Assembly: GCF_024464595.1 (NCBI RefSeq)
Contig: NZ_JANHAW010000002.1
Coordinates: forward strand, 558,001-622,000
DNA length: 64,000 nucleotides
Source: Halobellus litoreus
Lineage (GTDB): Archaea > Halobacteriota > Halobacteria > Halobacteriales > Haloferacaceae
Reading direction: 5' to 3'
The notes under the pieces were generated by a model. That model searched no databases. It was not told the origin of the DNA and saw only the letters and a list, made by a program, of their open reading frames with translations. Shown here in pieces: positions 41,352 to 53,600 of the stretch (the first letter of the stretch is position 1; every line of letters starts with the position of its first letter). Both the position numbers and the translations under genes were made by a program.

Positions 41352-41440
41352 GGGTCGCCGCCGTCCGGCGGTGAGTCGAGGGAGTGGCGGCCGATCTGCC
41401 GCGGCTGCGGAAGTCCGATGGATCGGGCGAGTCGGCGGCC

Positions 41441-42169
41441 TCAAGCCCACTCGGGGGTCTCGACGGTGGTCGTCCCGACGCGCTCGAACCGGACCGTCTG
41501 CGTGATCACTCGCGGTCCGGAACGGTACGCGACCGTCTGTCTCGTCTCGATCTGGCGAACGTACCCCGATGGATGCACGAGTAGCGTCATCGAGGCGTTC
41601 GACGTGACGTGGGTGTCGTTCAGGTTCGCGCGGACGCGGTAGAACGAGGTACCGTTCCGCGTAACCGTCTCGACCGTCGTGTTTCGACGAGTGCTATATC
41701 GGTACAGAAGCTGACGGTGGAGCGCGCTGTTGAGGCGGACGGAGGAGTTGAGCAACTGCACGTCCCGCACTCGGGTGTCGTTGCCGGAACGAATGCGAAC
41801 GACCGTGTCGTTCCCGTGCCGCCACGACGTGATGCGGTCCGGGGCCCGCTGGGAGCGCTCCGGGACGTCGCCGGTGACCGTTCGCGTCCGAACGGCGCTC
41901 GCTCGCACGGGGGAGCGCGGATCGACTCGCCACGTTCGGTTGGTGACCGTCCGGAACGTGTCGTTGGCGTCTCGAACGGTGGTCGTCGATCGGACGGTGA
42001 ACGTCTGCGATCGGAGCGTCTCCGTGTGCGCGCGAATCAACGAGTTAGAGTCGGTTACCTCGCTCGACGTCAGTTCCGGCGACGACGGCGAGTCGATCGG
42101 TGCGGTGCACCCGGCGGTGAGCAGCAGGCACGCGACGCAGATCGGGACGAGGTACTCGCGAGGATTCAC
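41441..42169 (-). CDS. secreted lipoprotein of unknown function
   Basis: 242 residues from GTG. The signal MNPREYLVPICVACLLLTAGC ends in a lipobox, so the mature protein is probably anchored by Cys21. The mature part is a beta-rich domain with many N-glycosylation sequons (NDT, NRT, NGT, NDT, NAS) and no Cys of its own. Not recognised as a known family. The GTG overlaps the stop of the CcdA-like gene (GTGA), making it the third gene of a thiol-disulfide operon, but it has no cysteine to be a redox substrate. Confidence 0.65.
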   Translation of the reverse strand: MNPREYLVPICVACLLLTAGCTAPIDSPSSPELTSSEVTDSNSLIRAHTETLRSQTFTVRSTTTVRDANDTFRTVTNRTWRVDPRSPVRASAVRTRTVTGDVPERSQRAPDRITSWRHGNDTVVRIRSGNDTRVRDVQLLNSSVRLNSALHRQLLYRYSTRRNTTVETVTRNGTSFYRVRANLNDTHVTSNASMTLLVHPSGYVRQIETRQTVAYRSGPRVITQTVRFERVGTTTVETPEWA

Positions 42170-42909
42170 TGGGGGAGCACCTCCGGGAACCCGTAGAAGT
42201 AGTAATAGATCTCCGCGACGCCGGAACAGACGAGGAGCGCGCCGGCCACGCGGTAGATCGTCCGGGTGTGGGATCTGAGCGCCGCGGTGATCGACGACCC
42301 GCCGAGGGCGGTCGCGCTCGTGAAGGCGGTCAGGACAGCACTCATCCCGAGCGCGTACGTGAGCGCGACGCCGACGCCGAGCACCGGCCCGGCAGCGACG
42401 CCCCGGAGGACGACCGCGATGAAGAGCGGCGCGGTACAGCCGGCTGCCGCCCCGGCGTAGAGTGCGCCGAAGAGAAAGAACCCGCTGAAAGACCGCTCTC
42501 GCTCCGGCAACTGAACCACCGACAGGGAGGGCTCCCACCCGATCATCATCAGACTGCCGGCGAGCACGAACACGCCCCCGACGACGAGTTCCATAACGGC
42601 GATGTCGGCGAGCGCCTGCGCCCCCAGAAACGCCGTCGTGCCCGCCAGGCCGACGTATACGACCGTCATTCCGGCGCCGGCGAGCGCGCTCAGGAGTACT
42701 GCCCGCCCGATCGGGCGACGAACGCGCGAGACGACGGAAGCCGAGGCCGCCGTCCGGGACGCGGTTCCGCCGCCGGTGTTAGAAACGGTATCGCTGAGGA
42801 AATACGAGAGGTAGCCCGGGAGCAGCGGAAACGCACACGGGGCGAAGAACGTGGCGGCCCCGGCGGAGAACGCGAGTCCGAAGAGCGCGGGGGTAGCGAG
42901 TCCGGTCAT
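42166..42909 (-). CDS. CcdA-like thiol-disulfide membrane transporter
   Basis: 247 residues, six spans. FFAPCAFPLLPGYLSYFL and AAAGCTAPLF carry the two conserved Cys residues of the CcdA/DsbD-beta family, which carry reducing power across the membrane to extracellular thioredoxins. The ATG follows the TlpA-like gene's stop by two bases. Its partner is the TlpA-like lipoprotein. Confidence 0.88.
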   Translation of the reverse strand: MTGLATPALFGLAFSAGAATFFAPCAFPLLPGYLSYFLSDTVSNTGGGTASRTAASASVVSRVRRPIGRAVLLSALAGAGMTVVYVGLAGTTAFLGAQALADIAVMELVVGGVFVLAGSLMMIGWEPSLSVVQLPERERSFSGFFLFGALYAGAAAGCTAPLFIAVVLRGVAAGPVLGVGVALTYALGMSAVLTAFTSATALGGSSITAALRSHTRTIYRVAGALLVCSGVAEIYYYFYGFPEVLPQ

Positions 42910-42911
42910 TA

Positions 42912-43487
42912 TCACGCCTCCGCCACCAGCGGATCGACGATCGACTCGAATTCCTGGAACGTGCGCGCCCTGACCGACGGCGACTCGCCGGTCGCGGGGG
43001 TTCCATCCGCGTCGAACACGAGGTTCGTCGGATAGCTGTTGGCGTTCCACCGCGACGTCGCGGCGAGAGCCGGATCCTTCACGACCGGCCAGGTTCCGTC
43101 GTACTCGTTCCAGAACTCCTCGATGAGCGATTCGTCCACTTCCGGCGTGATCGACACCATATGGAGGGTCTCGGCGTCGTATTCGGCCCGTAGCTTCCGG
43201 AACGCCGGCATCTCCTCCTGACAGGGCCGGCACCAGGTCGTGAAGAAGTTCAACAGGGTGACTTTCCCCTCGGGTTTGAGGACGACGTCGCCGTCCGGGA
43301 ACCCGTTGCGGGTGACGACCGACGGGAGCGCCAATCTGGAGTCCGTGTCGGCGCCGTCGGTTTCCGTTTCGGTTTCGGTCTGCGACGCGTTCGTGCCGGT
43401 GTTCGACTGGCCGACACAGCCGGCGAGACCGATTCCGAGGCCGGTGCTGATCGCTGTGAGGACGGATCGGCGGTCACTGGAGGGCAT
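42912..43487 (-). CDS. TlpA-like thioredoxin lipoprotein
   Basis: 191 residues: signal MPSSDRRSVLTAISTGLGIG ending in a lipobox (Cys24), a Thr/Glu linker, then a thioredoxin fold with NFFTTWCRPCQEEMPAF, whose active-site Cys pair is Cys86 and Cys89. An extracytoplasmic reductase, likely reduced by the CcdA-like gene product coded next, and possibly used in copper-site or cytochrome maturation. An AT-rich element lies about 34 nt upstream of the ATG. Confidence 0.9.
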   Translation of the reverse strand: MPSSDRRSVLTAISTGLGIGLAGCVGQSNTGTNASQTETETETDGADTDSRLALPSVVTRNGFPDGDVVLKPEGKVTLLNFFTTWCRPCQEEMPAFRKLRAEYDAETLHMVSITPEVDESLIEEFWNEYDGTWPVVKDPALAATSRWNANSYPTNLVFDADGTPATGESPSVRARTFQEFESIVDPLVAEA

Positions 43488-43552
43488 ACGTCGATTTGGG
43501 GGTTTCTTCTCGGGGGGTATTATTTCTCTGAAGGGTACAGGACGGGCTTTAC

Positions 43553-43705
43553 TCATCGCAGGTGTGGTCTGGGTGTGTGCGTCACGCGTCGGTCGAGCCA
43601 ACCTGGCTCCCGATCGACATCGTCGTCTGAAGCGCCGACGGCGGTGGCGGCCGCGTCGGCGGCGGTCGTCGTCCACGTCCGTGTCGGGAGGATCACGTTC
43701 GTCAT
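43553..43705 (-). CDS. candidate 50-residue ORF coupled to the monooxygenase gene
   Basis: Starts MTNVILPTRTWTTTAADAAA and ends RPHLR. Its ATG overlaps the monooxygenase stop codon (ATGA). The peptide is not similar to anything I know and has a mixed composition, so it may not be real. The rest of 43488-43701 holds the tlpA-like promoter. Confidence 0.3.
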   Translation of the reverse strand: MTNVILPTRTWTTTAADAAATAVGASDDDVDREPGWLDRRVTHTPRPHLR

Positions 43706-44913
43706 ACAAACTCACCTCCCCCGCTCCCGACGTCTGCGTCTGCTCCGTCGGGACCCGCGGGCGTTGGAACCGGCGCGTCGGCGACGCGCCGACGACGGAA
43801 GCGCCTGAACAGCGTCACCGGGAGCGCGGAGACGACGGCGTTTCGGACCCGCCAGGCGACAGGTGTCCCCATCGTGGCGAGTTGACCGAGGCGGTGGGAC
43901 TCGGATCTGACCCGGTTGGCTCGGCTCGCCCGGACCGATTCGTACGCCGTGAGAGCGTCACCGACCGTCGCGTTCGACTCGAACGCGTGTGCGAGCGCGA
44001 CGGCGTCTTCGATCGACTGGGCCGCCCCCTGCCCGGCGAACGGTAGCATTCCGTGTGCGGCGTCGCCGGCGAGCACCGTCGACCCACGATGCCACCGATC
44101 CAACGCGGGGAGGTCCCGCAACCCGGTCGTGATGATCTCGTCGCCCGCCAGCGATTCGACGATCGCCGGAATCGGGTCGGGATAGCCGCCGAAGTACGAG
44201 CGGATGTCGTCGACCGACGCCGTCTCCGACAACTCCGGCGGCGCCGTGGCGAACCAGTAGAACCGGTCCTCGGCGATCGGCGCACCGCCGGTGTACGTTC
44301 CGTCGCCCCACACCTCGAACCCGATCGGTTCGCCGCGTTGGTCCAACGACACCGACGGGAGCGCTCGGAAGACGGTCGTGTTCAGCGAGCGCGTCGAGAC
44401 CGGCGAGATCGTCTCTCGCACCCGAGAATCGATACCGTCCGCCCCGACGAGAACGTCCGGGCGGATGCGTGTCCCGTCGGCGAAGCGAACGGTCGGCGAC
44501 TCCGGATCGCTGACTGCGACGCACCGTTTTCCGGTGTGGATCGGGGCGTTCAGCCGCTCCCGGAGGATCGCCAAGAGCTTCGCCCGGCGAATCGCGACGA
44601 AGCCGTAGCCGAACTCCGTTCGCTCGACACCTCCGACGTCGAACGTCTGCAACACCCGATCCCGCGGGGAGCGGATTCGGATCCCCGAGAGCGGCATTCC
44701 CGAATCGCGAATCTCGGCGGCGACTCCGAGCGTCTCGAGGGCCACGAGCGCGTTCGTCTGGAGGAGAATCCCCGCGCCGACCGGTCGATACTCGGACGCG
44801 GCTTCGTACACCGCGACAGTGAATCCTCGCTGTTCGAGCGCGAGGGCGGTCGTGAGGCCGCAGATGCCACCACCGACGATGGCGACCTGCACCTCGCCGT
44901 CACGTCTACGCAT
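43702..44913 (-). CDS. FAD-dependent monooxygenase
   Basis: 403 residues of the p-hydroxybenzoate hydroxylase fold. VAIVGGGICGLTTAL is the dinucleotide-binding GxGxxG motif, VGADGIDSRVR is the DG motif, and LAGDAAHGMLPFAGQG is the FAD ribose-binding GD motif. It hydroxylates an aromatic or similar small molecule with NAD(P)H and O2; the substrate is not apparent. It is divergent from an HTH-10-type regulator with an 83-base shared promoter region, which may control it. Confidence 0.88.
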   Translation of the reverse strand: MRRRDGEVQVAIVGGGICGLTTALALEQRGFTVAVYEAASEYRPVGAGILLQTNALVALETLGVAAEIRDSGMPLSGIRIRSPRDRVLQTFDVGGVERTEFGYGFVAIRRAKLLAILRERLNAPIHTGKRCVAVSDPESPTVRFADGTRIRPDVLVGADGIDSRVRETISPVSTRSLNTTVFRALPSVSLDQRGEPIGFEVWGDGTYTGGAPIAEDRFYWFATAPPELSETASVDDIRSYFGGYPDPIPAIVESLAGDEIITTGLRDLPALDRWHRGSTVLAGDAAHGMLPFAGQGAAQSIEDAVALAHAFESNATVGDALTAYESVRASRANRVRSESHRLGQLATMGTPVAWRVRNAVVSALPVTLFRRFRRRRVADAPVPTPAGPDGADADVGSGGGEFV

Positions 44914-44966
44914 ATCTCAGCGTACGTCGAACTAACGCCAACAGTTGTTGCCGGTCATACACAGTA

Positions 44967-44974
44967 CTTTAAAT
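44967..44974 (+). promoter_or_regulatory. TATA box of the HTH-10 regulator
   Basis: CTTTAAAT is centred about 27 nt before ATG 44997, in the 83-base region shared with the divergent monooxygenase gene. Confidence 0.6.
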
Positions 44975-44996
44975 TACAGTCTCGTAGTCGTCTCCG

Positions 44997-45653
44997 ATGC
45001 GGTATCTCACCGTCGAGGCCGCGCCGGACGGAACGGCCGCGCTGCACCCGCTCGGGACGGAACTCCGGGACGACCCCTCGTTCACACGCGAGGCGATCCA
45101 TCACGTCGAACTCCTCGACGATCGGAGCGTCCTGATGCTCGCGGAAGGAAGCGGCGATCGGGCGCGGTACGCCGAGATTATGCGGGAATCGCCGTACGTC
45201 GAGGACTTCCTGGTTTCCGGGACGGATCGGTGGATGGCAGTCAGCCAGTTCGAGTTGTCCGGGCCAGCGAAACAGATTATGCTGCGCGCGGACGTGCCGG
45301 GCGTCGTCGTCGAGACTCCCATCCACATCAACGCCGACGGGTCGCTTCGGATCACGTATCTCGGCGACGAATCGGCGTTACAAGACCTCTACAGCGCGAT
45401 TGCCGACGACGTACCCTTCCAACTGGACGTGCTGGAAACGGGAACGTACGCGCCGGATCAACACTCGTTGACGCGGATTCTCACACCCCGACAACGAGAC
45501 GTCCTCGAAGCGGCCGTCGAGAGCGGCTACTATCGCGAGCCGCGTCGCGCGACGCACGAGGACATCGCCGAGACGGTCGGAATCGCGTCCACGACGGTGG
45601 GCGAACACCTGCGGAAGATCGAACAGCGAGTGTTCACCGCTCTCGTTCGGTGA
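44997..45653 (+). CDS. bacterio-opsin-activator-type HTH regulator
   Basis: 218 residues. The N-terminal part (1-150) is a sensor-like domain of the Bat-associated type; the C-terminal HTH-10 domain starts at LTPRQRDVLEAAVESGYYRE and includes THEDIAETVGIASTTVGEHL (recognition helix region). Such regulators are common in haloarchaea and control nearby genes. Being divergent from the monooxygenase, it is a good candidate regulator of it. Confidence 0.88.
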   Translation: MRYLTVEAAPDGTAALHPLGTELRDDPSFTREAIHHVELLDDRSVLMLAEGSGDRARYAEIMRESPYVEDFLVSGTDRWMAVSQFELSGPAKQIMLRADVPGVVVETPIHINADGSLRITYLGDESALQDLYSAIADDVPFQLDVLETGTYAPDQHSLTRILTPRQRDVLEAAVESGYYREPRRATHEDIAETVGIASTTVGEHLRKIEQRVFTALVR

Positions 45654-45798
45654 GTGCCGGGAACGCTGGTCGATATTCGCGGGTAAACCGAACAACCGTG
45701 GTAATACTCAGCAGTACAGTATAACTCTGGTTCCGTATCTCAACAGATGGCTCTGGTACCGGCGTTATTGACCCCACTCGTGGGAAGTCGCAGTCGCG

Positions 45799-46674
45799 AT
45801 GAATTGGTCCCCCTCCCGACGGTCGTACATCAAAGGAACTGCTCTCGCTGGCCTTCTCGGCACTACCGGGTGTCTCTCGACAACCGGGCAGACGCAACCT
45901 TCGACGGAGACGCCATCAACAGAGACGGCGTCACCGACGGAAACCGAGACTACCCCCGTCGAGTCGCTGGACGCGTGGCTCGCGGATGCCAACGGCCACG
46001 ATGGAACCCCGAGGCGGTTCGGCACCGGCGCGCAACCGACGATCTCCGTCGGCGAACCCACCGACGACGGAATCGCCTTCGATCCGGCGGTGATCCGCGT
46101 TCGCCCGATGAGCAACGTCCGCTGGGATTGGACGGGTCACGGCGGGAGGCACAACGTCGTCGCCGTCGACGGCACGTTCGACAGCGGACGGGCGAACGCT
46201 CAATCCGGAACCGGATACCACTACATCTTCGAGGAGACGGGCGTGTACCCCTTCTTTTCGGCACCGCACCGCGACGACGGGATGAAGGGCGCGGTACTCG
46301 TCGAGGCGGTCCCCTCGACCGGGTACCCGGCGGTGGACGAGTGGCTGGCGAGCGCGCCGAACTTCACCGGCGACGTCGTCGATCGGACGGCGTCCGACAC
46401 CGCGACGGTGACCGTCGGCGCGCCCGACAGCGAGAATCAGTTCGTGTTCTCGCCGCCGGTACTGGAGGTGTCCACCGAGACGACGGTCGAGTGGGAGTGG
46501 GTGGGCAGCGGCCCGCACAGCGTCTCGTTCGAGGGTCACGAGATCGGTAGCGACGGGGTCGTTTCCACGTCCGGCGTTCACTTCACGCACACGTTCGAGG
46601 AACCGGGAACCTATCGATACCACTGTACGCCGCACGAGAGCCTCGGGATGCGAGGAGCCGTCATCGTGGAGTGA
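45799..46674 (+). CDS. two-domain halocyanin with a degenerate first copper site
   Basis: 291 residues with a Tat-type lipobox signal (RRSYIKGTALAGLLGTTGC, Cys25), a Thr-rich linker (30-55) and two halocyanin-type cupredoxin domains. The second domain (about 175-291) has His240, Cys276, His279 and Met284 as copper ligands. In the first (about 55-170) the positions are His118, Ser154, His157 and Met162, so the Cys ligand is replaced by Ser. The second site should be a blue copper centre; the first may be copper-free or a different type of copper site. Confidence 0.87.
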   Translation: MNWSPSRRSYIKGTALAGLLGTTGCLSTTGQTQPSTETPSTETASPTETETTPVESLDAWLADANGHDGTPRRFGTGAQPTISVGEPTDDGIAFDPAVIRVRPMSNVRWDWTGHGGRHNVVAVDGTFDSGRANAQSGTGYHYIFEETGVYPFFSAPHRDDGMKGAVLVEAVPSTGYPAVDEWLASAPNFTGDVVDRTASDTATVTVGAPDSENQFVFSPPVLEVSTETTVEWEWVGSGPHSVSFEGHEIGSDGVVSTSGVHFTHTFEEPGTYRYHCTPHESLGMRGAVIVE

Positions 46675-46778
46675 AGCACACCGAGAGCGCAGAAGGAGTC
46701 CGTCGAGATCGAATATTTTCGGACAGCGTCGGTTCGAGAGAACGATCGATCGGACAGAGATAACAGAAACTTTGCACG

Positions 46779-47651
46779 GTGCTGTCGGAGTTCGAGAAGA
46801 TGTTTCGGTCGAACAGCGACCCGCCGACGTTCGGAGGTGGGTCTACGGTCCCCGTCGCAACGTACCTCCTGACAATCGTGGTCCTCTCCGGACTGATCCT
46901 CGTCTCCCCGAGCGCGTCGCCGCCGCCGCTTCTGGGAACCGCCTGGGGCGTCTTCCTCGTCGCGCTCGCGCTCGGGGCGTCGAAGATCGAGGGCGTCTCC
47001 CCCCGATCGATCTTCCCGTCGGTCCGAACCCTCGTCCCCGTCGTCGTGACGCTGGGCGCGTTCTGGGCCGCCTACAACCTCGTCGTGGTCGGGTTCGCCG
47101 TCGGGGGGGTTCCCGGTTTCGAGATGTCGCCGTCGAGCGTCGCCGCCCATCCGCTCCGGTACCTCGCGGTCCTCCTGGGTTCGGTCCTGTTCACCGCGAT
47201 TCCGGAGGAGTCCCTCTTCCGCGCGTATCTCCAGGAGAAGTTCGTCTCGCTCGCTGGCGGCGGCTCCCGCCGCGCGGTCGTCACTGGAATCGGCGTCGCG
47301 ACGCTCCTGTTCGCCCTGTTTCACCTGCCGAGATGGTTCCTCGCGTCGGGCCACGGGATCGGGACGTCGCTGGCAGCCCGGTTGCTCGGACTGGTCCTCG
47401 TCGGCCTCACGTACGGAATCGCGTACGCGCTGACGGGGAACCTCTGGCTGGTCGCGCTGTTCCACGCGACGATGAACCACCCGCCGTTCCTCGTGACGGT
47501 GAGTTACCCGCCAGACCTGCACCTGTTCGTCGGAGTCGTCGAGAGCGCCGCCATCGTGGCGGTCGTCTACGCGGCCGTTCGCGTCGTCGATCCGGACGGC
47601 GCCGCGCTCGGCGGGTTCCAGCGAGCGGCCTCGTCCGCGCCCGGCGAGTAG
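46779..47651 (+). CDS. CPBP-family intramembrane metalloprotease
   Basis: 290 residues, eight predicted spans. The motifs EESLFRAYL (EExxxR), FALFHLP (FxxxH) and HATMNH are those of the CPBP (CAAX/bacteriocin-processing) protease family. The start is at GTG 46779 or ATG 46800. Family members cleave prenylated or leader-type peptides in membranes or give immunity; substrate unknown. Downstream lies the ABC exporter with direct repeats between. Confidence 0.85.
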   Translation: MLSEFEKMFRSNSDPPTFGGGSTVPVATYLLTIVVLSGLILVSPSASPPPLLGTAWGVFLVALALGASKIEGVSPRSIFPSVRTLVPVVVTLGAFWAAYNLVVVGFAVGGVPGFEMSPSSVAAHPLRYLAVLLGSVLFTAIPEESLFRAYLQEKFVSLAGGGSRRAVVTGIGVATLLFALFHLPRWFLASGHGIGTSLAARLLGLVLVGLTYGIAYALTGNLWLVALFHATMNHPPFLVTVSYPPDLHLFVGVVESAAIVAVVYAAVRVVDPDGAALGGFQRAASSAPGE

Positions 47652-47668
47652 CTCCCCGTACCGCTCAC

Positions 47669-47718
47669 GCGCTCCGATCGATCGCGGAAGCGGCGATCGG
47701 TGGCGCTCCGATCGATCG
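47669..47718. repeat. 16-bp perfect direct repeat upstream of the ABC exporter operon
   Basis: GCGCTCCGATCGATCG occurs at 47669-47684 and at 47703-47718, 34 bases apart (about three helical turns). It lies about 40-95 bases before the exporter's TATA box. A regulatory operator is plausible. Confidence 0.7.
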
Positions 47719-47760
47719 GGGTGACCTGTCGATCGAGGCGGCCAGCCCGTCGAGAAAGAA

Positions 47761-47768
47761 AGATACAT
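47761..47768 (+). promoter_or_regulatory. TATA-like element of the ABC exporter operon
   Basis: AGATACAT is centred about 30 nt before ATG 47794 and only about 11 nt before the in-frame ATG at 47776. It supports the start at 47794. Confidence 0.4.
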
Positions 47769-47793
47769 AGGCCGAATGTCAAAAGGTGGCGAT

Positions 47794-48720
47794 ATGGCCG
47801 CCATCGAAACACGGTCCCTCTCGAAGCGATTCGGTTCCCTCCACGCGGTTCGCGATCTCGACCTCACGGTCGAGTCCGGTGAGGTGTTCGGATTCCTCGG
47901 CCCGAACGGTGCCGGGAAGTCGACCACGATCAACATCCTGCTGGACTTCGTTCGCCGGAGCAGCGGCGACGTGAACGTCCTCGGGTACGATCCGGAGCGG
48001 AACCCGCAGGCCGTCCGGCAACGCATCGGCGTGCTGTCCGAGGGCACGGGGTTTTACCCCCGGGACACCGCCCGCGATCACGTCGCGTTCGCGATCGAGA
48101 TGGAGCGGGCCGGCGACGACCCCGACGCCGTCCTCGAACGCGTCGGAATCGCCGACGCGGCTGATCGCGCCGTCGGAGGCTTCTCGAAGGGGATGCGAAA
48201 GCGACTCGGCCTCGCGATCGCACTCGTCGGCGATCCGGAGATACTGGTGCTCGACGAACCGCTTGGCGGACTCGATCCCGAAGGCGCCCAACGGCTCCGC
48301 GAGATCATCCGAGCGGAGCGCGACCGGGGTGCGGCGGTGTTCTTTTCGAGCCACATTATGGATCAGGTCGAGGCGATCTGCGACCGGGTCGGGATACTGC
48401 ACGACGGGGAACTGGTCGCCGTCGACACCGTCGATCGACTCCGCACGAGCGTCGCGGAACCGGCGCGGTTCAACCTCGTCTTCGCGTCCGTGCCAGAGGA
48501 CGTCCCCGCTGCCGTCCGGGCGGTCGACGGCGTCACCGACGTGACTGTCGCCGGTGAAACCGTCCGCGTCACCTGTCGGGATCCGGCGGTCAAGTCGGCA
48601 GTCGTCGCGCGCGTCGACTCGCTGGACGCGACGATCCGTGACATCGACACGCCGGGATCCTCGCTCGAACGGGTGTTCCGCTCCGTGACGGACGACGCCG
48701 ACGGCCACGTGGACGGATGA
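47794..48720 (+). CDS. ABC transporter ATP-binding protein
   Basis: 308 residues: Walker A GPNGAGKST (about 37-45), signature FSKGMRKR, Walker B ILVLDEPLGGLDP and H-loop FFSSHIM. The protein starts MAAIETRSLSKRFG, like the other ABC-2 ATPase in the window, and an ATG 18 bases upstream is less likely because of promoter spacing. Its stop overlaps the permease ATG (ATGA). Exporter of unknown substrate. Confidence 0.9.
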   Translation: MAAIETRSLSKRFGSLHAVRDLDLTVESGEVFGFLGPNGAGKSTTINILLDFVRRSSGDVNVLGYDPERNPQAVRQRIGVLSEGTGFYPRDTARDHVAFAIEMERAGDDPDAVLERVGIADAADRAVGGFSKGMRKRLGLAIALVGDPEILVLDEPLGGLDPEGAQRLREIIRAERDRGAAVFFSSHIMDQVEAICDRVGILHDGELVAVDTVDRLRTSVAEPARFNLVFASVPEDVPAAVRAVDGVTDVTVAGETVRVTCRDPAVKSAVVARVDSLDATIRDIDTPGSSLERVFRSVTDDADGHVDG

Positions 48721-50498
48721 GCCGCACGGTCACCTACGCCCGCGCCGACGCGCGACGGCTGCTTCGAAGCCGACGCGTGTGGGCGGCGGCCGCGTTGCTC
48801 GCGCTGATGTTCCTGCCGTCGATGCCGGCCGTCGCCGACCCGGAACGGCGACCGATCGGCGAACTCCTGCTCGTGATCCCGTTCGACCTGCTCACGTTCG
48901 CACTCGTCGTCGTGGCGGCGGTCGGCTACGGTGCCGTCGCCGGACAGCGCGGGACGGTCCAGTTCAGGCTGGGGCTCGGCGGCACGCGCCGCGAACTGGT
49001 CGCCGGAACAGCGCTCGCGAGAGCGACGGCGACCGCCCTCGTCCTCGTGGGGGCTCTCGCGGCCGCGCAGGTCGTGGTCGTACAGAACTACGGCGCGCCG
49101 TACGCGGTCGCGTACTGGACGATGGGCGCGTGGCTGGTGCTGTACGGCGTCGTCTGGACGGCCGTCGCCGTGGGGTACGCCGCGGCGTTCCGCTCGCCGT
49201 ACCAGTCGCTCGCAGCGCTGGCGGGGACGTACGTCGTCTTCAGCTCCAATTACGGCGTGTGGGGCGCGGTGATCCGACCGCTGTTCGCACTCCTCGCGAC
49301 GGGGTCGACGTCGGTGCCGGCGTACGAGGTCCTCGCGAACGCGCCGCTGTGGCTCCGCGTCGTCGAGCGCCTGAACCCGATCCGTGACCTCTGGCTGGCA
49401 CTCCGCTGGTCGGTCGGCGTCGCCGGACCGGGGACGGCCGTCGGCAATCCGTTCGCCCACGCCCTGGGAGCGGTCGTCCTCGTCCTGTTCGGTGCGGTTC
49501 CACTGCTGGTCGGCAGCCGGCGGTTCGAGCGAGCGGACCTCGGGAGTGAAGCTCGCGGATTCCGACTCGCACTCGTGGCTCGGTTCCGGGAGGCGGCAGG
49601 ACGGTTCGTGCCGTCAGCCGCGAGAGCGGGCCGCGAGCCGACCGAGACCGCGTCCAGCCGCTCGCATCGCCGACTCGTGGCCCGCGCCGACCTCCGGCAC
49701 GCCCTCCAGAACCGGATCGTGCTCGCGGGCGTCGGGCTGGCGCTCCTGCTCGGTGGCCCGTCGGTCTGGCAGCAGACCGCGAGCAGCACCGTCTTCGAGG
49801 TGAGCGAACAGCTCGTTCGCGTCCCCGGCCGATTGGTGTTGCCGCTGGTGGCGCTCGGCGTTGCGGTGGGCCACCGCGCCGTGGTCGGTAAGCACCTGGC
49901 CGGGACCGCGCAGTTCGTCCTCAGCACGAACGGGACCCGCCAGGACCTGTTCGCCGGCACGGTCATCGCGCGGTTGACGGTCGTACTCGGGACGGCGCTC
50001 GCGTTGCTCGCCGTCGCCTGGGTTCTCGCGACCGTCCGGCTCGGGGCGCTCTACCCGGGGGCGATCGCCGCCGGGACGCTCTGGATCGTGGCCTACGCGA
50101 CCCTGTGGACGAGCCTGACGGTGAGCGCCTCGGCGGTGGCGGCGACGCGGTACCGGTCCCTCGCCGCGATATTCGGCGCGTTTCTCCTGTTCAGTACCGG
50201 CGTCGGACTCTGGGGGTCGGTCGTCCGTCCGTTGGTGGCGTACCCGATCACGGGCCGGTTCGAGTCGGGACTGGTGCCGAATCGGGACTGGCCGGCGTGG
50301 TTTCACGCCGTCGATCACCTGAATCCGTTCGTCTCGCTCGAAACGCTCAAAGGCGGGTTGTACGCCGCGGCGGGGCACGGAACGCAGACCGCGCCGTCGC
50401 TGCCACTGGTCGGTTACAGTGCCGTCGTCGTCGTCCTGTTCGTTCTCGGGGCGCTGGCGGTCGGTCTGCGCCGGTTCGAGAGCCGCCCGTTGGGCTGA
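48717..50498 (+). CDS. ABC-2 permease with duplicated halves
   Basis: 593 residues: two homologous six-span halves (1-275 and 320-593). The repeat is seen from matching segments: VQFRLGLGGTRRELVAGT in half one and AQFVLSTNGTRQDLFAGT in half two, and FSSNYGVWGAVIRPL matched by FSTGVGLWGSVVRPL. Usually such permeases work as homodimers of single halves; here one chain supplies both. It is encoded with its ATPase through an ATGA overlap. Confidence 0.85.
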   Translation: MSRTVTYARADARRLLRSRRVWAAAALLALMFLPSMPAVADPERRPIGELLLVIPFDLLTFALVVVAAVGYGAVAGQRGTVQFRLGLGGTRRELVAGTALARATATALVLVGALAAAQVVVVQNYGAPYAVAYWTMGAWLVLYGVVWTAVAVGYAAAFRSPYQSLAALAGTYVVFSSNYGVWGAVIRPLFALLATGSTSVPAYEVLANAPLWLRVVERLNPIRDLWLALRWSVGVAGPGTAVGNPFAHALGAVVLVLFGAVPLLVGSRRFERADLGSEARGFRLALVARFREAAGRFVPSAARAGREPTETASSRSHRRLVARADLRHALQNRIVLAGVGLALLLGGPSVWQQTASSTVFEVSEQLVRVPGRLVLPLVALGVAVGHRAVVGKHLAGTAQFVLSTNGTRQDLFAGTVIARLTVVLGTALALLAVAWVLATVRLGALYPGAIAAGTLWIVAYATLWTSLTVSASAVAATRYRSLAAIFGAFLLFSTGVGLWGSVVRPLVAYPITGRFESGLVPNRDWPAWFHAVDHLNPFVSLETLKGGLYAAAGHGTQTAPSLPLVGYSAVVVVLFVLGALAVGLRRFESRPLG

Positions 50499-50638
50499 TT
50501 CGCTGTGCTTTCGGACGCCGTCGCGCTGGACAAGGAATATAGTCCGTGGCTTCGTCGTGCCGCTGACGGGTGAACCGCGGGGGGCGAGCCATCGGGCGGT
50601 TCCGCGCGACGAACCCGCGCCGCCGGGATGATCCAACG

Positions 50639-52435
50639 ATGGCAGGGACACTCACACAGAATATCGCCTTATCGCGCGCACGTGATGAACACGGGTACGT
50701 CGACGCCTCGGTCGTCTTCGAGATCCCCTCGAACGTCGGCCGGGTCTCCGTCCAGGTCCCGCCGTGGACCACGGTCGACAGCGTCCGGGGCTTCGATCGA
50801 CGGTCGGGGTCACAGCAGTTCGTCTGGACGGGCGGCGCCAGCAGACCGACACTGGAACTGACCGTCCCGGCGGAGAAGCCGACGCTGGGCGCGGCCGGGA
50901 CCACGATGGTCGACGTCGGGGAGTGGGCGATCATCGAGGCCCCGAACCTGCTCACGCAGTGGCGACACCGCGGCGAGGAACCGACGTTCGAGCGACGCCT
51001 CGTGGTCGACGACGAGGGGATCGCGAGCAGCGACGGCGGGCTGGTGTACCTCGGGCCGCACCGCGAGCACACCCGGCGCGCGGCCGGCCAGCGGATCCGG
51101 CTCGTCGAACCCCGCGCGGCGTCGCTTCGGGAGTCGCCGAGGGACATCCTCGACGCGTTGGCACACGCGGCCCGGGAACTCCGCGTCAGCGGCCGAGACG
51201 AGGAGGTCGTCGGCATCGCGGCACCGACGCGACCCGTGAACTGGGGGCCCGGCGGGCTCCACGCGGGCGGGAACGCCTTCTGGGCCCGGGACAGTTCGCG
51301 GCTCGACAAGCCGAACAGCACCTGGATCCACGAGTACGTCCACACGCGGCAGGAGTTCGGCACCGACGCCTCGATGAAGTGGATCGTCGAGGCGACGGCG
51401 GTCTACTACGCGACGCAACTCACGTACGAGCGGGGCGGGATCTCCGACGGCCAGTGTCACGCCGCGCTCAACACGTCCACGTGCGCGACCGACGCGCTCG
51501 GAACGCCGGTGTCGTGGAGTTCGGCGCACGTCCCCTACCGCAAGGGAAGCCGGGTCGTGAGCTGGCTCGACCGGCAGATCCGCGAGTACAGCACCGCGAC
51601 GCTGGCCGACGTCCTGGCGTCGATGAACCGGCTCTCCGACGGCTCGATCACCGATCCACCGATGCTGTCGGGAGCCCTCGACGACGACGACGAAGCGGTC
51701 GGCTTCGAGGATTTCAAGCGGCTCGTCGCCGCCGCCGTGGGGAGCGAGCCCGGCGGCAGGACGTTCCGACCCATCGAGAGCGGGCTGGACTCGGCGGTCA
51801 CCAGTTCGAGCGTGCCCGAGGCGACGTCCCCGCCCGGCGTCGGCGACGTGTCGGGCGAACCGGTCGCGGACCCGGCGGCGGCGACGGACGCGACCGAGTT
51901 GCTCGACGATGCGTTCGGCGAGCGCTACGGCGAGGAGGTCGTCGAGGGCGACGGTCGGATCGACGAGGGCACGGTCTTCGGCGACGACGGCGACGGCGGC
52001 TCGCTCATCGAGGAGTCCGACATTTTCGGCGGCGATCGGGACGGCGGCGACGACGGGACGACGACGGTGAGAATCGAAACCTCGGGGAGCGACGTCACCG
52101 TCGGCGGCGACGTCGACGACGCCGACGTCGAGCGGACCGAATCGGGGATCAGCGTCGACACCTTCGGCTCCGACATCGAGGTCGACGCCTCGGGAATGGA
52201 CATCAGCGTCTCGACCGGCGGCGGCGCGAGCACCGAGATCAGCGTCTCGGGCGACGGCATCAGCGTCGAGAGCGGCGACGTCAGCGTCAGCACGACCGGC
52301 GGCATCGAGGTGGGTGGCGACGTCTCCACCGGCCTCGGCGACGGCGACGACGACGCCTGTTCGTTCTGCGGGGCGGACCTGTCGGACCACGACGGCGCGA
52401 AGTGCCGCTCGTGCGGCTGGCCGACCGGGTGGTGA
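50639..52435 (+). CDS. putative HEXXH metalloprotease with beta-repeat and zinc-ribbon tail
   Basis: 598 residues: an N-terminal beta domain (1-150), a protease-like domain with HEYVHTRQEF (His231, Glu232, His235) and a downstream Glu251 in VEATAVYY, giving HEXXH-x15-E as in gluzincin-type peptidases; a low-complexity region (350-480) rich in Asp/Gly; a repetitive beta segment (about 480-560; e.g. SDIEVDASGMDISVSTGGGA) like a small beta-solenoid; and a zinc ribbon at the C-terminus (Cys574, Cys577, Cys589, Cys592). No signal peptide or membrane span is seen, so it may act in the cytoplasm. I do not know this architecture. Confidence 0.65.
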   Translation: MAGTLTQNIALSRARDEHGYVDASVVFEIPSNVGRVSVQVPPWTTVDSVRGFDRRSGSQQFVWTGGASRPTLELTVPAEKPTLGAAGTTMVDVGEWAIIEAPNLLTQWRHRGEEPTFERRLVVDDEGIASSDGGLVYLGPHREHTRRAAGQRIRLVEPRAASLRESPRDILDALAHAARELRVSGRDEEVVGIAAPTRPVNWGPGGLHAGGNAFWARDSSRLDKPNSTWIHEYVHTRQEFGTDASMKWIVEATAVYYATQLTYERGGISDGQCHAALNTSTCATDALGTPVSWSSAHVPYRKGSRVVSWLDRQIREYSTATLADVLASMNRLSDGSITDPPMLSGALDDDDEAVGFEDFKRLVAAAVGSEPGGRTFRPIESGLDSAVTSSSVPEATSPPGVGDVSGEPVADPAAATDATELLDDAFGERYGEEVVEGDGRIDEGTVFGDDGDGGSLIEESDIFGGDRDGGDDGTTTVRIETSGSDVTVGGDVDDADVERTESGISVDTFGSDIEVDASGMDISVSTGGGASTEISVSGDGISVESGDVSVSTTGGIEVGGDVSTGLGDGDDDACSFCGADLSDHDGAKCRSCGWPTGW

Positions 52436-52511: not shown

Positions 52512-52535
52512 CGACTTCCGATGACCGGGTCAAAT

Positions 52536-53600
52536 ATGTCAAGCGGGTATCCGTACGTCTATCCGCCCGACCGGTTGTTCCACGTGGGCGGACGGCGGAT
52601 ATCGACCACCGTCGTCGCCCTTGCGCTCCCGGTGGTGGTGGCCGCCCTCGACGTGATGCTGTTCGGATTCCCGGAGACGGGCGTCCCCTACAACTACCCG
52701 CTCTTCGGCGACGTCGTGCTCGTCTGGCTGGCCGTCCTGTTTCTCCGGCTCTCCCACCGCGTGCTCTGGAACATCGGGGACGAGTTCGCCACGCTGATCC
52801 GATTGAGCCGCGGGAATCCGGTTTCGCTCGTGCAGTCACTGACGCCGGAGGACATCCACAGCGACCTACAGAACGTGCTGTACCTCGCGTATCACCCGGT
52901 CGTTCTGGTCGTCGGTGCAGTCCTCGGCGGGACGTTCGTGAGCGCCATTATGCACTGGATGGGCGTCTTCGAGGCGTACCCGTACCTGGGGATGAACTTC
53001 GGGTTCGGCGCGGCCCACGGGGTGTTCTTCGGGCCGGTCGTCGGCGGGGCGTACGTCGTCGTCCGCGCGTACACCACGTACATCGCCGACATCAACCTCC
53101 TGGACCCGAACGGCGTCGGCGGCTACCGACAGATCGGCAACGGTATCGTGAAACTGGCGACGTACGCCATCGGCATCCTGACGTTGGATTTCGTCATCCT
53201 GTCCAGCGTGACGTTCACCGCGTTCGAGCGGTTCCAGGTCGTCGTCAGCGCGCTGTTTCTTCTCGTCCTCGCCGTCGTCGTCGTCGGGACGGTGACGGTC
53301 ACCGTTTTGGTGCGACGGAAGTTGCTGCAGGTCAGAAGCGAGAAGGTCAGTCTGATGCGCGAGACGTTCGCCGACGTCGAGCGGGAGTACTGGCGAAAGT
53401 ACAGAGCCGAGGAGAACAACCTCCCCGAGGCGCTGAACGTCCTCTCGATGTACGCGATGTTCTATCAGATGAGCGATATGGACATGTGGCCGATCAACCT
53501 GTACTCGCTCGTCCGACTGGGCACGAGCGTGAGTTTCTCGCTGGCCGTGTACTACCTCGACCTGATCAACTCGATCAAATCACTCGCGACGCTCGTCTAG
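52536..53600 (+). CDS. polytopic membrane protein of unknown function
   Basis: 354 residues beginning MSSGYPYVYPPDRLFHVGG with about 7-8 spans (two near 28-75, then about 115-180 and 210-260), a basic-acidic coiled cytosolic stretch at about 260-305 (RRKLLQVRSEKVSLMRETF) and a final span. No family I recognise. Its TAG stop overlaps the stop of the convergent nucleotidyltransferase gene within one CTAG. Confidence 0.6.
   Translation: MSSGYPYVYPPDRLFHVGGRRISTTVVALALPVVVAALDVMLFGFPETGVPYNYPLFGDVVLVWLAVLFLRLSHRVLWNIGDEFATLIRLSRGNPVSLVQSLTPEDIHSDLQNVLYLAYHPVVLVVGAVLGGTFVSAIMHWMGVFEAYPYLGMNFGFGAAHGVFFGPVVGGAYVVVRAYTTYIADINLLDPNGVGGYRQIGNGIVKLATYAIGILTLDFVILSSVTFTAFERFQVVVSALFLLVLAVVVVGTVTVTVLVRRKLLQVRSEKVSLMRETFADVEREYWRKYRAEENNLPEALNVLSMYAMFYQMSDMDMWPINLYSLVRLGTSVSFSLAVYYLDLINSIKSLATLV

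Follow-up and report, generated by a model that had tools for sequence, protein, structure and literature searches.

Introduction

Peptidases of family M1 are characterized by the signature HEXXH-x18-E and by the exopeptidase motif GxMEN, and those of family M61 (the glycyl aminopeptidase family) carry a GGLEH motif and usually end in a C-terminal PDZ domain. The glutamate of GxMEN or GGLEH binds the substrate N-terminus. Proteins of the FtsZl1/Tubulin_2 type were predicted in 2010, from gene context, to run a membrane-remodelling machine (PMC2875224), and tubulin/GTPase conflict systems have been described in PMC7159879. A text search of PMC2875224 for protease or peptidase gave no hit, and in the literature covered, an incomplete set of main texts, neither the protein family treated here nor any protease encoded at FtsZl1 loci was found described.

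The gene analysed here lies within a stretch of 64,000 nucleotides of Halobellus litoreus DNA (the window), and its product was compared with these systems. The window protein resembles M61 enzymes (7xyo, 8j9c, 4fgm) in having an N-terminal beta domain and a thermolysin-like domain, an HEXXH motif, a Glu in a W-x-x-E-[AG] helix, and Y-x-K-G followed by a leucine-aspartate helix, and M61 is the best sequence-profile match of its family. It differs from them in its HEXXH-x15-E spacing with a shorter loop, in a GL[QH]xG-type motif instead of GGLEH, and in an acidic linker and ribbon at the place where M61 proteins usually have the PDZ domain. With M1 enzymes (tricorn F3, 1z1w; the two-domain enzyme of D. 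radiodurans, 6a8z) it shares the two-domain fold at a VIA Z of ~20, but its spacing is x15 rather than x18 and no GxMEN motif was visible by eye. The FtsZl1/Tubulin_2 systems (PF13809; PMC2875224, PMC7159879) enter the comparison because Tubulin_2 is present at six independent loci of the clade to which the window protein belongs, one of them (G258) having a similar set of vWA, kinase-FHA and PP2C genes, whereas the window gene itself does not adjoin Tubulin_2.

Gene, reading frame and sequence features

The gene comprises an open reading frame of 598 amino acids (Table 1). The ATG was accepted as the start because similarity to the orthologue of Halobellus rarus (84% identical) begins exactly at that codon, and an in-frame GTG upstream of it, at 50570, was rejected for the same reason. 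Estimates of dN/dS between the two genes (core 0.19, linker 0.29, repeat tail 0.22) indicate that the window gene is under purifying selection.

Table 1. Features of the predicted peptidase gene and of its downstream neighbour; positions are those of the window.
Feature	Position	Strand	Basis or remark
Whole gene; predicted product an M61-like cytosolic gluzincin carrying an acidic linker, a repeat and a zinc ribbon	50639..52435	+	598 aa
N-terminal beta domain (beta-saddle, M1/M61 type), residues 1-160, boundary approximate	50639..51118	+	AF2 strands 4-158, pLDDT ~80-93; M1/M61 chains align from residue 3
Catalytic domain, residues 161-400, boundary approximate	51119..51838	+	AF2 model, Foldseek, VIA, profile alignment
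HEYVH, residues 231-235; predicted zinc ligands H231 and H235, predicted general base E232	51329..51343	+	No variation at H231, E232 and H235 among 55 members
E251, predicted third zinc ligand (HEXXH-x15-E)	51389..51391	+	Invariant; W-x-x-E in register with 4fgm and 7xyo (M61 structures)
Y300-R-K-G, corresponding to Y-x-K-G (catalytic tyrosine motif) of M1/M61	51536..51547	+	Matches YAKG of 4fgm in the alignment
Conserved acidic linker motif (TELLDDAFGERYGEEVVEGDGRIDEGTVF...IEESDIF)	51893..52027	+	G258 orthologue 47% identical, E ~1e-8
Imperfect Ser/Gly/Asp/Val-rich beta-like repeat, Halobellus only	52061..52339	+	Sequence comparison; AF2 fold not confident
C-terminal zinc ribbon C574-x2-C577-x11-C589-x2-C592	52358..52414	+	Aligns with ribbon of G258 orthologue; missing in H. 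rarus
Polytopic membrane protein, probably starting at 52536	52521..53600	+	Same-strand neighbour, downstream

A sequence-only reading of this stretch had described an HEXXH-x15-E protein with an N-terminal beta domain, an acidic linker, a repeat of the SDxEVDASGM type and a C-terminal C-x2-C...C-x2-C ribbon, made without an export signal. Its residue numbers for the catalytic histidines and glutamates were correct, the beta domain and the four ribbon cysteines were recovered, and no hydrophobic segment of the signal or transmembrane kind was found in the window protein, whose best 19-residue mean hydropathy is 0.86 (2.4-2.9 in the signal and anchor segments of relatives). The linker was confirmed as well; it and the ribbon are conserved in the G258 orthologue, and no further copy of the linker motif was present in the fetched DNA. 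The repeat held up less well, being an imperfect low-complexity stretch seen only in the two Halobellus sequences, with pLDDT below 50 and no confident fold in the AlphaFold model. Folding of the isolated tail (repeat and ribbon) together with that of H. rarus gave a pLDDT of 45, and no fold could be assigned.

Fold and catalytic residues

Searches of Pfam, NCBIfam and PDB sequences with the window protein alone gave nothing useful, and matches to VgrG and gamma-crystallin were rejected as low-complexity noise. AlphaFold was supplied with 11 sequences and modelled residues 1-400 with confidence (pLDDT mostly 80-93) and the tail with low confidence. Foldseek with this core returned 7xyo (M61) at E 1.9e-12, the M1 structure 6a8z at 6.7e-12 and 4fgm at 9.4e-11, and VIA-align over ~340 residues gave Z scores of 20.1 to 1z1w and 19.8 to 4fgm (rmsd 4.2-4.5). 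A sequence profile of 55 family cores matched 4fgm (E 2.2e-5) and 7xyo (0.026), with WxxE and YxKGxxxxxLD in register. By these three comparisons residues 1-400 have the M1/M61 fold, and the earlier statement that the architecture could not be placed was not upheld for this part of the protein. The structure-prediction check proposed with that statement came out in favour of the predicted metal site, in that the model places two helices, 228-236 with HEXXH and 248-264 with the Glu, within the M1/M61 peptidase domain.

H231, E232, H235 and E251 (H236, E237, H240 and E256 in A2 numbering) are invariant across the 55 family members, so the HEXXH does not stand there by chance; in Y-x-K-G, Tyr and Gly are nearly invariant. 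The window protein is predicted, with high confidence, to be an M61-like zinc peptidase. Pfam Peptidase_M61 (PF05299) matched weakly in five of 55 relatives (best E 8e-4) and did not match the window protein, and no PDZ domain was matched anywhere in the whole window protein, the tail of which consists of acidic linker, repeat and ribbon. Because the family profile fails, the PDZ domain is missing and the spacing of the metal ligands is unlike that of M1, the core is read as an M61-related gluzincin and not as a formal member of M61. The stretch 5' of HEXXH is GGLHAGGNAFW, and GL[QH]xG is typical of the relatives; read by eye, the lack of the glutamate of the exopeptidase motifs hints at an endopeptidase.

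The haloarchaeal family and its signal-less clade

Homologues of the window protein form a family, unnamed in Pfam and NCBIfam, that occurs in 207 of 292 Halobacteria genomes. A tree was calculated from 70 cores and rooted at the midpoint only, and in it the window protein falls into a monophyletic clade of eight (support 96/89). The other 62 cores come from exported proteins consisting of a signal peptide, the core, CARDB or TSP3 repeats (in the examples tested) and a C-terminal anchor that is often PGF-CTERM-like. Their cores are homologous to that of the window protein (25-46% identical) and have the same catalytic residues, but an N-terminal hydrophobic signal was found in 62/62, a C-terminal TM segment in 56/62, a PGF motif in 39/62 and a ribbon in none. 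Members of the clade, by contrast, have no signal (0/8), no PGF motif (0/8) and no anchor, and six of the eight have a ribbon, one to three zinc ribbons being usual; HEXXH, E251 and Y-x-K-G are retained in all eight.

Within the clade, the gene of which occurs in ~9 of 391 genomes, the window protein groups with the G258 protein (100/99), an orthologue from another taxonomic family that is 43-44% identical to it. The two align over their full length, including the acidic motif (DAFG..DEGxVF..SDIF) and the ribbon; the repeat is confined to Halobellus. In members of the Haloarcula type the C-terminus bears two or three ribbons (DZR, E down to 2e-15). The two members with no ribbon are that of L051, which runs off the contig end, and that of H. 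rarus, in which the tail carries a deletion: at L037:8847-8911 the ribbon-coding DNA has been lost and the reading frame ends in another frame, the rest of the gene being under purifying selection.

The window protein fits the signal-less clade in monophyly, absence of a signal, acidic linker and zinc ribbon, and it is very probably intracellular. Because exported forms prevail in the family, export was taken as ancestral, and we infer from this that in the clade the linker and ribbons were acquired while the signal peptide and the anchor at the C-terminus disappeared. A family common to most haloarchaea has thus switched cleanly between two forms, one exported and anchored, the other cytosolic and equipped with ribbons. 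The fold is classed as already known, and the cytosolic ribbon architecture and the genetic association described below are classed as new.

Association with Tubulin_2 genes

All seven clade loci outside Halobellus have a Tubulin_2 (FtsZl1-like) gene 0.13-6.8 kb from the peptidase gene, encoding proteins of 700-950 aa; since two loci (G239 and G293) are near-identical, these were counted as six independent ones. The peptidase gene is divergent from the tubulin genes in five of the six, and in four of those the gap is only ~125-155 bp. Nearly all Tubulin_2 matches stronger than E 1e-8 in these genomes lie in the peptidase locus, the exception being a long-type copy in G293. Under random gene placement the probability of this linkage would be ~4e-13, a figure to be taken as an order of magnitude only. 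The converse does not hold, most haloarchaeal Tubulin_2 loci being without the peptidase. The clade as a whole is likely to be functionally linked to Tubulin_2 systems.

The G258 locus also encodes a vWA protein, two Ser/Thr kinases with FHA, a zinc ribbon-FHA protein and a PP2C. A family of small exported proteins recurs in Tubulin_2 loci (L079:14228-14911, L080:7455-8135, L077:9825-10520 and L081:4104-4784, with weaker matches in L128, L129 and L090), including loci with no peptidase. In PADLOC the peptidase matched no defence family; LmuB matches of the tubulins were discarded as weak, and matches of the kinases as generic.

Proposed function and alternatives

The best explanation, to which we assign a probability of about 0.55, is that the window protein is an intracellular regulatory protease, M61-like in type, which its linker and ribbon dock to partners in a tubulin-like system. 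The family from which it would derive is widespread in haloarchaea and consists of exported proteases anchored in the membrane. One branch would have dropped its C-terminal anchor as well as its signal peptide and acquired, besides an acidic linker, between one and three zinc ribbons, and linker and ribbon would tether the enzyme to a complex of cytosolic proteins. Zn2+ would be bound by H231, H235 and E251, E232 would act as general base, Y300 would stabilise the transition state, and the docked enzyme would cut a specific protein at that complex. In most of the branch the complex would be the Tubulin_2 (FtsZl1-like) filament system encoded by the adjoining genes, and the enzyme its regulatory or processing protease. 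The sequence-only reading had suggested that repeat and ribbon are used inside the cell to bind a nucleic acid or a protein partner. An intracellular zincin whose ribbon binds a partner is supported by the distribution of signals (0/8 in the clade vs 62/62 outside) and of ribbons (6/8 vs 0/62) and by the conservation of linker and ribbon in the G258 orthologue. The gene neighbourhoods make protein partners the more likely of the two; nothing specific was found in support of a nucleic acid. Against the explanation count the H. rarus protein, where the ribbon, having been lost, is dispensable, the lack of linkage to Tubulin_2 in Halobellus, and the many Tubulin_2 loci that have no peptidase.

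The fold is that of the M1/M61 aminopeptidases, the Halobellus copies are not linked to tubulin, and H. rarus manages with no ribbon, all of which would suit a general intracellular peptidase or aminopeptidase of peptide turnover, with the tubulin linkage due to hitch-hiking on islands and the ribbon serving as a stabilising tail. We consider this unlikely, since the linkage recurs at the six independent loci, in two deep subclades and mostly as divergent pairs, since the rarity of the gene ill suits housekeeping turnover, and since the proteins have GL[QH]xG in place of the GxMEN or GGLEH glutamate. The Halobellus peptidase might instead have its partners in the genes around it, in the membrane protein encoded downstream, the ABC transporter encoded upstream or both, and might cut, for instance, a cytosolic loop or an export substrate, and the order of peptidase and membrane protein genes is indeed common to both Halobellus species. 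This is less probable still: the ABC genes are missing in H. rarus, and the membrane protein has no relatives at the other clade loci. Another Halobellus genome (G009) has the membrane gene with no peptidase at all, for which reason a role of the membrane protein as dedicated partner was rejected; it is probably not one. That the protein is a catalytically dead, structural zincin-fold adaptor scaffolding a complex would agree with the lack of a known enzyme activity for any family member found here, yet it is very improbable, given the retention of the catalytic motifs throughout the clade and the purifying selection on the gene.

A wider form of the docked-protease reading is put forward tentatively, as somewhat improbable in its entirety. 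The clade would represent the protease arm of haloarchaeal FtsZl1 systems, a secreted M61-like enzyme re-routed to the cytosol with ribbon docking and acting on the tubulin-like filament or its membrane partners, and the Halobellus gene would have moved away from, or outlived, its tubulin partner. That the Halobellus copy still serves a tubulin-like system is doubtful. If the wider reading is true, a dedicated protease at the divergent promoter of Tubulin_2 genes would offer a testable handle on filament control.

The Halobellus loci

No Tubulin_2 gene was found near the Halobellus peptidases, either in the window or in the 14 kb around the H. rarus gene, and the strong Tubulin_2 match of the window genome lies on another contig and belongs to a distinct long type. 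This 1138-aa protein is encoded in L089:1352-18842 (contig C3 of G000, outside the window) beside apparent vWA, J-domain-like and HSP70-like proteins (identified by eye), an arrangement that resembles the tubulin/HSP70 systems of PMC7159879. In a further Halobellus genome (G007) the slot from S15/DHH to mobA/moeA holds a Tubulin_2 locus and a small exported protein, which replace the peptidase region (L129:4810-12176). Its presence in the matching slot is suggestive, but the slot is variable and could be a mere hotspot.

The membrane protein encoded downstream of the window gene has no Pfam match; its close relatives (~90%) are confined to two further Halobellus genomes, and remote ones (22-32%) occur in a few haloarchaea. 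In H. rarus the peptidase gene directly follows the end of S15, and at that place the window has 9.2 kb (41398-50634) that are absent between the matching H. rarus flanks and that encode an FAD monooxygenase-like protein, a cupredoxin protein, a CPBP (Rce1-like) protease and an ABC-2 transporter pair.
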